Of a stretch of DNA of 64,000 nucleotides, positions 61,602 to 63,960 are shown one piece after another. The DNA is taken from contig JAUXYA010000015.1 in NCBI GenBank assembly GCA_030684405.1, positions 1 to 64,000 on the forward strand, written 5' to 3'. Within the stretch, counting starts at the first letter, position 1; each line of letters starts with the position of its first letter. The translations under genes were made by a program, and so were the position numbers. The notes under the pieces are model-generated. The model did no database searches. It was not told where the DNA came from and was given only the letters and a program-made list of their open reading frames with translations. Source of the DNA: Burkholderiales bacterium. GTDB taxonomy: Bacteria > Pseudomonadota > Gammaproteobacteria > Burkholderiales > SG8-41.

Positions 61602-62453
61602 ATGGCGCCCGTGCTGCGCAGCCTGTTGCTGATGACGCTGGGCGTCGCGCTGCTCACGGCCAATGATGCGGCGAGCAAATACCTGGTGCAGTCGTACCCG
61701 GTGGGGCAGGTGATCGGCCTGCGCCAGGCAGCGACGCTGCTGGTGCTGATTCCGTATGTGATGTGTTTCAGCCGCTGGAGCGCGCTGCGCGTGGTCGACT
61801 GGCCGGGACAGCTCGGGCGTGGTGTGCTGTTCATCATCGGTTCGGTGTTCATCGTCTGGAGCCTCGCCGAACTGCCGCTGGCAACGGCCATCACGATGCT
61901 CTTCGCGAGCCCGATCTTCATGGTGGTGCTTTCCGCGCCGCTGCTCGGCGAACGCATCGGGCGTCATCGCTGGATTGCGGTGATCGGCGGTTTTGCCGGT
62001 GTGCTGATCATCCTGCGTCCCGGTGCCGAGTCCTTCCAGTGGGCGCTGCTGCTGCCGCTTGCCGCAGCAATGATCAACGCGCTGCGCGATGTGATAACAC
62101 GATGGTTGTCGCGCACCGAGACCTCGATCGCGATCCTGTTCTGGTCGAACATCATCCTGATGGCCGGCGGATTCGCGACGCTGCCCTTCGGCTGGCAGGC
62201 GGTGACCTGGCATGCGGGGCTGTGGTTCCTTGCCGCCGGCATTTTCAACGGCAGTGCGCATTTTCTGATCATCGAAGCCCTGCGCACCGGCGAGGCCTCG
62301 GTGCTGGCACCCGTCCGTTACACCGCGCTATTGTGGGCGGCCGCGATCGGCTTTCTCGTCTGGGGTGAACTGCCGGAACTGTGGCTGTGGGCGGGTGCTG
62401 CGGTAATCGTCGGCAGCAGTCTCTACATGATCCGTGGCGAGCGGCGGCGCTAA
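61602..62453 (+). CDS. EamA (DMT) family transporter
   Basis: The 283-residue protein has 10 hydrophobic segments in two EamA repeats (LTANDAASKYLVQSYPVGQV to GAESF, and NALRDVITRWLSRTETSIAI to LYMIRG). It resembles drug/metabolite exporters. Substrate unknown. Its ATG follows the MFS stop almost directly, so it is probably expressed with it. Confidence 0.9.
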   Translation: MAPVLRSLLLMTLGVALLTANDAASKYLVQSYPVGQVIGLRQAATLLVLIPYVMCFSRWSALRVVDWPGQLGRGVLFIIGSVFIVWSLAELPLATAITMLFASPIFMVVLSAPLLGERIGRHRWIAVIGGFAGVLIILRPGAESFQWALLLPLAAAMINALRDVITRWLSRTETSIAILFWSNIILMAGGFATLPFGWQAVTWHAGLWFLAAGIFNGSAHFLIIEALRTGEASVLAPVRYTALLWAAAIGFLVWGELPELWLWAGAAVIVGSSLYMIRGERRR

Positions 62454-62578
62454 GTTCCGTAACCCCCTGTGCGTGACGGGTTTCTCCGGTTTCGATTGCA
62501 GTGGCAGGGACCCGCGATTATGCTGGGCTTGCAGTCTGGCAATACCGATTGTTCATAATGATGACAAGGAGAACTTTT

Positions 62579-63040
62579 ATGGAAATTCAAGCAGGCGGTG
62601 CGGCACCGGATTTCACGCTGGCCGCGCACAACTCTGACCAGAAGGTCGCGCTGTCCTCGTTCAAGGGACGCCCGGTCGTGGTCGCATTCATGCCCTTTGC
62701 CTTTACCGGGGGATGAACCAATCAAGTCCGTGGGTTCCGTGAGAACTACGAAGAATTCAAGAAACTGAACTGCGAAATCCTGCAGCTGAGCGCCGATCCG
62801 CTGCCGAGTCTGAAAGCCTGGGCAGAGCATCTTGGTGGCGTGCCTTTCCCGCTGATGTCCGACTATTGGCCGCATGGTGCGGTCGGTCAGGCCTTCGGAA
62901 TTTTCAATGACGAGCGCGGCATGGATAAACGAGCCGCCTATGTCATTGATGCCAAGGGGGTCGTGCGTTACGCCAAGGTCTACCCGCAGGGCACGATTCC
63001 GACCAGTGAGGAACTGCTCGCCGAGCTGCGCAAGCTCTAG
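62579..63040 (+). CDS. AhpE-like peroxiredoxin with TGA at the active-site cysteine (probable selenoprotein)
   Basis: Reading TGA at 62714-62716 as Sec gives 153 residues in one frame. The protein opens MEIQAGGAAPDFTLAAHNSD and reaches FMPFAFTGGU46TNQVRGFR, where AhpE has FPLAFTGIC with its peroxidatic cysteine. The downstream part continues in the AhpE manner: SADPLPSLKAWAEHLGG, PLMSDYWPHGAVGQAFGIFN. A good AAGGAG ribosome site precedes ATG. Apart from the TGA the frame is unbroken and the family's usual length. Cys65 is the only other cysteine. It would reduce peroxides. Loss by a nonsense mutation is the alternative but is less likely with the hairpin that follows. selA/B/C/D are not in the window. 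Confidence 0.8.
62729..62750 (+). promoter_or_regulatory. Candidate bacterial SECIS hairpin
   Basis: Twelve nucleotides after the TGA, CGT-G-GGTTC pairs with GAACT-ACG around the loop CGTGA: 8 pairs (one G-U) with a single bulged G. The loop has G in its second position and starts 21 nt after TGA, within the range described for bacterial SECIS elements, which also carry a bulge in this part of the stem. Confidence 0.65.
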
Positions 63041-63177: not shown

Positions 63178-63960
63178 ATGTTCAACGGAAAATGCGCCCT
63201 TGTCACCGGCTCCACCAGCGGCATCGGCCTTGCCGTTGCCAGCGCGCTGGCGGCGCGCGGCGCCAATATCATGCTCAATGGCTTCGGTGACCCCGAAGCC
63301 ATCCGCGACCTGCGCATAAAACTGGCGCAGCAGTACGGCGTGCGCGTCGAGTACCACGGCGCCGACATGAGCAAACCGGCCGAAATCGCCGAAATGATGG
63401 AGCACACCGTCGCGGTGCTCGGCAAGATCGACATCCTGGTCAACAACGCCGGCATCCAGTTCGTTGCTCCGGTCGAGGAATTCCCGCCGGAGAAGTGGGA
63501 TGCGATCATCGCCATCAACCTGGTGGCGCTGTTTCACACCATCCGCCATGCCGTGCCCGGCATGAAGCGGCGGCGCTGGGGGCGCATCATCAACATCGCC
63601 TCGGCGCATGCGCTGGTGGCTTCGCCCTTCAAGTCGGCCTATGTCGCCGCCAAACACGGCGTGGCCGGGCTGACCAAGACCATTGCCCTCGAAACCGCCA
63701 CCTTCGGCGTCACCTGCAATGCGATCTGCCCGGGCTACGTGCTGACGCCGCTGGTGCAGAAGCAGATTCCGGACACCGCGAAGGCGCGCGGCATCACGGA
63801 GGAGCAGGTGGTGCGCGACGTGCTGCTGGCAGCGCAGCCGACCAAGCAGTTCGTGACGGTGGAGCAGGTGGCAGCATTGGCCTGTTTCCTTGCGAGCGAC
63901 GAAGCGGCGTCCATTACCGGCACCTTGCAGGCGATCGACGGCGGGTGGACGGCGCAGTAA
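63178..63960 (+). CDS. bdhA: 3-hydroxybutyrate dehydrogenase (SDR)
   Basis: The 260-residue protein has TGSTSGIGLAVASALAARGA (NAD site), LVNNAGIQFVAPVEEFPPEK, catalytic ASAHALVASPFKSAYVAAKH (Ser-Tyr-Lys) and the extended CPGYVLTPLVQKQIPDTAKA characteristic of D-3-hydroxybutyrate dehydrogenases. It oxidises 3-hydroxybutyrate, a product of PHB breakdown, to acetoacetate. Monocistronic in this window. Confidence 0.94.
   Translation: MFNGKCALVTGSTSGIGLAVASALAARGANIMLNGFGDPEAIRDLRIKLAQQYGVRVEYHGADMSKPAEIAEMMEHTVAVLGKIDILVNNAGIQFVAPVEEFPPEKWDAIIAINLVALFHTIRHAVPGMKRRRWGRIINIASAHALVASPFKSAYVAAKHGVAGLTKTIALETATFGVTCNAICPGYVLTPLVQKQIPDTAKARGITEEQVVRDVLLAAQPTKQFVTVEQVAALACFLASDEAASITGTLQAIDGGWTAQ

Follow-up and report, generated by a model that had tools for sequence, protein, structure and literature searches.

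A predicted AhpE-type selenocysteine peroxiredoxin in Burkholderiales

The window considered here is a stretch of 64,000 nucleotides from the genome of a Burkholderiales bacterium (contig JAUXYA010000015.1, positions 1 to 64,000), in which a peroxiredoxin gene of the AhpE type occupies positions 62579-63040 of the forward strand. The gene starts with ATG at 62579 and stops with the TAG that ends at 63040; a Shine-Dalgarno-like AAGGAG, read from the sequence, lies at 62566-62571 (+ strand), 7 nt 5' of the ATG. The frame holds a single in-frame TGA, codon 46 (62714-62716, + strand), which coincides with the peroxidatic residue of the PxxxTxxC motif and is read here as selenocysteine (Sec, U). 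With TGA as U the product has 153 residues, the site context is MPFAFTGG-U-TNQ (motif P39-x3-T43-x2-U46), and a Pfam AhpC-TSA match covers residues 6-131 (E 2.5e-34). This match spans the TGA and bears out the first-pass annotation, which had the frame continuing in phase to a normal length. Downstream of the TGA lies a SECIS-like hairpin, the core of which (62731-62750, + strand) has seven pairs, a bulged A on the 3' side, and a CGUGA loop that begins 21 nt after the TGA.

The gene is flanked on the same strand by an EamA-family transporter gene upstream (61602-62453) and a short-chain dehydrogenase (SDR) gene downstream (63178-63960). Homologues of the transporter and the SDR lie beside the peroxiredoxin gene in 15 and 19, respectively, of 59 homologous loci, all of them in close relatives. 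The neighbourhood yields no clue to function, with an SDR or EamA gene present in 19 of the 59 loci compared, some of which represent the same assembly twice; the transporter and the SDR are regarded as mere neighbours of the gene, outside the system.

The 59 loci come from a scan of contigs for homologues of the peroxiredoxin. TGA occupies the codon 46 column in all 45 loci with at least 58% identity (L022-L066), and the remaining 14 (L067-L080), with at most 39% identity, have Cys at the site. In the family of the source organism the gene is found in 61 of 74 genomes, including 37 of the 41 of good quality, with one TGA in each match; at the site itself TGA is read in 61 of 61 gene-carrying genomes (the source stretch, seven loci [L082-L087 and L091] and 53 short stretches), including G090, in which the gene is split between two contigs. 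These two sets overlap, many of the assemblies being the same, and the counts are not independent. Thirteen of the 74 family genomes have no match at E 1e-25, and seven of these are less than 90% complete. No Cys orthologue occurs among the 45 close relatives and the 61 gene-carrying family genomes; the exchange of Cys and Sec at this column that the first-pass annotation looked to find is therefore seen with the distant homologues, which have Cys, but not among the orthologues, which have TGA throughout.

An ordinary peroxiredoxin frame broken by one TGA is also what a nonsense mutation or a sequencing error would leave behind, in which case the gene would be a pseudogene. This explanation is refuted by the conservation of TGA at one codon in every close relative and every gene-carrying family genome, and the protein is conserved on both sides of the TGA (22 of the 36 columns that are invariant in 32 aligned sequences follow residue 46); its probability is negligible.

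Beyond the family, the TGA gene is present in 22 of 300 genomes of the order, with at least 44% identity and, for the 21 unsplit genes, scores of at least 134 bits; after these, the best match in the sample scores 79 bits and is a Cys protein. A phylum-wide sample of 398 genomes (E 1e-18) returned the gene itself and one Cys protein of 35% identity and nothing else, so the TGA gene is seldom found beyond a few families. In a tree of 62 rows, for which the bootstrap had not settled and long branches were flagged, 51 Sec rows fall on one side together with a single long-branched Cys row from Actinomycetota (L068), with support of 99/97, a grouping compatible with one origin of Sec or with more than one.

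Some of the assembly labels in these sets deserve comment. A TGA-containing relative with 58% identity (L065; SHXW01000014.1) comes from a metagenome-assembled genome (MAG) titled Dehalococcoidia in which selA scores over the cut-off; its hairpin has the same loop, with the pair between columns 20 and 34 as A-U, and the gene is either a lateral transfer or on a mis-binned contig. Five MAG records titled Bordetella parapertussis (L025, L033, L048, L052, and L061) cluster in the tree with MAGs of Betaproteobacteria/Burkholderiales, and these labels look doubtful.

Comparison with solved proteins places the 153-residue protein with AhpE. All of its best seven solved relatives belong to the AhpE type, and six carry the name Rv2238c or MT2298. 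With the single sequence, AhpE (Rv2238c/MT2298) reaches 114 bits and the next protein 69; with a profile of 32 relatives drawn from 51 distinct ones, the scores are 140 and 91 bits. In the alignments with the best two solved relatives, which span the site, TGGU is matched by TGIC, in agreement with the earlier proposal that the TGA stands at the AhpE active-site cysteine. None of P39, F42, T43, U46, and R118 varies among the 32 aligned sequences, and A41 is present in at least 90%. The AhpE signature PxAF(T/S)xxC, including the Ala-Phe pair (PMC5302317), is found here as PFAFTGGU; the conserved Val or Ile that precedes the peroxidatic Cys in the same signature (PMC5302317) is absent, its place being taken by Gly45, which is invariant in the 32 sequences. 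The protein thus belongs to a separate branch of the AhpE type and is not a canonical member. The protein scores 86.8 with the PrxU model (NCBIfam NF040737), under the curated cut-off of 270. Cys residues outside the Sec column are poorly kept (column 65 in 14 of 49 sequences, column 93 in 2 of 49), and by this alignment the predicted enzyme is of a one-Sec type that lacks a conserved resolving Cys.

Bacterial SECIS elements are hairpins that closely follow the UGA and have a small apical loop containing a G (PMC1088965). In the source gene this G lies in the small loop CGUGA, which begins 21 nt downstream of the UGA; the G in the apical loop had been recognized in the first-pass annotation. 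The hairpin drawn there (62729-62750, + strand; eight pairs with one bulged base, starting 12 nt after the TGA) does exist, but each of its lower three pairs fails in most of the 31 distinct relatives compared (they form in 14, 8, and 5, respectively); that base-pairing is replaced by the shorter, conserved seven-pair core at 62731-62750. In the alignment used for pairing (31 distinct sequences of 33, with the more distant L101 and L102 excluded because their hairpin is shifted) the core corresponds to columns 18-24 paired with 30-37, A35 being bulged, and 98.6% of cells are paired. The pair between columns 20 and 34 is seen as G-U, G-C, and A-U, every change being one-sided; two-sided covariation in the core pairs is absent from the main alignment (476 of 500 shuffles reach the observed score), and the shuffles give no covariation support because the core hardly varies. 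Folding energy is likewise unremarkable, as 134 of 200 and 131 of 200 shuffles fold at least as well. A competing minimum-energy fold pairs columns 18-28 with 34-46. With 87.1% of its cells paired it is less conserved than the core hairpin; 30-31 of the 31 sequences can form its inner four pairs, and it may be a second state.

It is conservation, not energy, on which the hairpin is judged to be real. Sixty-six genes (the source, L022-L066, and L082-L102 minus the split L100) gave 52 distinct sequences, of which 49 were compared, the partial L064 and the distant L101 and L102 being left out. Seventy codon columns are assessable in that their amino acid is conserved and degenerate, and exactly five of these show zero synonymous variation: GGG 52, TTC 53, CGT 54, AAC 56, and TAC 57, all of which sit within the hairpin. 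Synonymous diversity in the other columns has a mean of 0.44 and is never lower than 0.04; the chance that five zero columns would fall on those five is 1/C(70,5) = 8e-8 if the columns are taken as exchangeable. The corresponding sequence GGGTTCCGTG[A/C]GAAC is present in all 53 additional family stretches. L101 and L102, at 44-45% identity, also have TGA at the site and carry a hairpin of their own (CUUCAAC-CGUGC-GUUGAAG), with the loop three bases further on and the CGUGC set on an unrelated seven-pair stem. In folding energy this hairpin surpasses 190 of 200 shuffles in L101 and 164 of 200 in L102; the two distant relatives have thus kept the CGUG loop on a newly built stem.

The source genome (3.74 Mb, 99% complete) contains the machinery for Sec insertion, all four components that the first-pass annotation proposed as a check having been found: tRNA-Sec scores 75.9 bits (cut-off 47), and ARAGORN calls it as well, giving the anticodon as tca; selB scores 434 bits (cut-off 242); selD 424 bits (cut-off 125); and selA, which adjoins selB, 586 bits (cut-off 268). 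Among 14 control genomes the tRNA-Sec model exceeds its cut-off in five, selB and selD in two each, and selA in one; the tRNA-Sec model alone is therefore not decisive, and selA is the most specific marker. Within the 300 genomes of the order selA is present in 87, comprising all 22 that have the TGA gene and 65 of the 278 that lack it (Fisher P 1.8e-13, a value that ignores kinship and is optimistic because the genomes are related).

Conservation of the TGA does not by itself name the amino acid, and the codon might be decoded without selenium, as Cys, as Trp, or through general leaky read-through. The presence of tRNA-Sec, selA, selB, and selD together, the occurrence of selA in every genome of the order that carries the gene, the coincidence of the constrained sequence with the SECIS position, and the placement of the TGA at the catalytic site all speak against such decoding, and at least one other gene of the genome, the PrxQ-like gene described below, appears to end in TGA. 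General read-through is rejected on these grounds, and selenium-free decoding as a whole has a very small probability. Machinery, TGA conservation, and synonymous constraint agree with the original preference for selenocysteine over a nonsense mutation, so far as sequence can indicate.

The peroxiredoxin gene is accompanied in the source genome by at least four further redox genes with an in-frame TGA (selD, an fdnG-type gene, a TlpA-like gene, and a PrxQ-like gene). The TGA of selD itself lies in a GGG-U-GCK motif and is followed by a hairpin of similar build (seven pairs, 3' bulged A, loop GUU) at 20 nt. The TlpA-like gene has a hairpin with loop CGUGCA at 26 nt, and the fdnG-type gene has a possible one with loop GGUCU at 18 nt, although a different hairpin is more stable there; the best hairpin of the PrxQ-like gene lacks a G near the start of the loop and does not fit the SECIS rule.

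The TlpA-like and PrxQ-like genes adjoin each other on contig C27 (L111:1492-2606, - strand) and have one in-frame TGA each, in the contexts WASW-U-SSC (TlpA/ResA-like) and AAFTDT-U-TTE (PrxQ-like peroxiredoxin). Signal-like stretches can be seen by eye at both N-termini, and the two look like a pair of exported selenoproteins. At least nine further genomes in the order have a second, distant peroxiredoxin gene with 35-40% identity and one in-frame TGA (G233:C152, G005:C13, G131:C19, G140:C33, G100:C239, G090:C17, G203:C34, G293:C40, and G169:C64), and these genes are probably the counterparts of the PrxQ-like gene. On contig C6, near 46498 (L119), a formate-dehydrogenase-like gene has its TGA in ARI-U-HSSSVPG, the Sec site of fdnG-type enzymes, and is probably an fdnG-type selenoprotein gene. 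No TGA occurs in the gene that best matches FdhA in this genome (C27:174718-176769).

The reading that best accounts for the locus, and to which we assign a probability of about 0.96, is that the gene encodes a one-selenocysteine peroxiredoxin of the AhpE subfamily whose UGA is decoded by way of SelB and the hairpin; Sec insertion, activity, and reductant are predictions from the gene and its genome. In this mechanism Sec-tRNA-Sec would be supplied by SelA and SelD, SelB carrying it would bind the putative SECIS hairpin with its loop from 21 nt downstream, and the ribosome would decode the UGA at codon 46 as selenocysteine. The Sec selenolate, presumably held by P39, T43, and R118 as in other peroxiredoxins, would then attack a hydroperoxide and become a selenenic acid. 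Because the family conserves no Cys besides the Sec position, an outside thiol would probably resolve the selenenic acid, most likely glutathione with glutaredoxin, or else thioredoxin. AhpE is reportedly reduced by mycothiol/mycoredoxin 1, according to the title of one study, and by analogy glutathione plus glutaredoxin is the likely betaproteobacterial counterpart.

Every gene in which UGA encodes Sec has the potential to act as a selenium switch, the product being a short peptide when selenium is lacking and the enzyme when it is available, and the strong conservation of the hairpin would suit a UGA and hairpin that serve mainly for selenium sensing. The protein after the UGA is itself strongly conserved, which indicates that selection sees the full-length enzyme, and a sensing role as the main function is accordingly improbable, though not as remote as the other two alternatives. 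The Sec enzyme favoured here may have a further peculiarity. Cys homologues of Sec peroxiredoxins are generally widespread (PMC1088965), whereas the Burkholderiales AhpE-type lineage is, among the genomes sampled, Sec-only. We suggest tentatively, at somewhat less than even odds, that this lineage is one of obligate one-Sec, glutathione-dependent peroxidases resembling Sec-containing GPx, and that its gene is among those that make the Sec system worth keeping in these bacteria.

A Sec peroxiredoxin of Eubacterium acidaminophilum was reportedly described by Sohling in 2001, as cited in PMC13188914 and PMC9312934. The cited literature treats Sec peroxiredoxins with TxxU as an established selenoprotein family (PMC1794560, PMC5029168, PMC2398784), as the first-pass annotation indicated in calling them known in some bacteria; PMC1088965 counts 43 of them in the Sargasso Sea, PMC1794560 counts 12 in the genomes of 2006, PMC2398784 counts 253 in GOS, and PMC5029168, from 2016, counts 91 in 78 organisms. 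AhpE has long been described from actinobacteria (PMC6155587) and is classed as a one-Cys peroxiredoxin (PMC5811025); an atlas that speaks of AhpE as "previously" confined to actinobacteria itself extends the group, archaea included (PMC5302317). The word AhpE does not appear in the available text of two reviews from 2022 and 2026 (PMC9312934, PMC13188914) and of the GOS paper (PMC2398784), and no report of a Sec AhpE is found in the titles and abstract openings of the literature on AhpE, Sec peroxiredoxins, and Burkholderiales selenoproteins, a scope that lies short of supplements and most subscription papers. AhpE-type sequences may well be present in the older TxxU sets, labelled there as Prx; for this reason the predicted Sec AhpE is classed as a new branch of an already known kind of protein. 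What may be new are the AhpE subtype, the betaproteobacterial setting, the use of Sec, with no Cys form, across the lineage as sampled, and the lack of a conserved resolving Cys.

These results add a well-supported selenoprotein branch, with the gene for an AhpE-type selenoenzyme in most good-quality genomes (37 of 41) of one betaproteobacterial family. Gene callers that stop at TGA would yield a 45-residue fragment and miss the enzyme, and a Sec-only peroxiredoxin of the one-Cys type would allow a test of the advantage of Sec over Cys.

The predicted enzyme shares with the bacterial Sec peroxiredoxins (Prx, pfam00578, TxxU) the PxxxTxxU motif, a peroxidatic Sec, a UGA with downstream SECIS, and the sel machinery, but that family is tabulated under pfam00578 or COG1225 (Bcp) rather than AhpE (PMC9312934, PMC13188914). 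The one-Cys AhpE of Actinobacteria (1xxu, 1xvw, and 4x0x) is its closest solved relative, with which it has the AFTG motif in common; it differs in having Sec for Cys and Gly for the Val/Ile before the site, and a conserved second Cys is likewise absent from the Sec protein. The fdhF SECIS of Escherichia coli resembles the present hairpin in lying just after the UGA and in having a small loop with GU, whereas the loop, the stem sequence, and the side of the bulge differ, the bulge being on the 3' side here and on the 5' side in fdhF.
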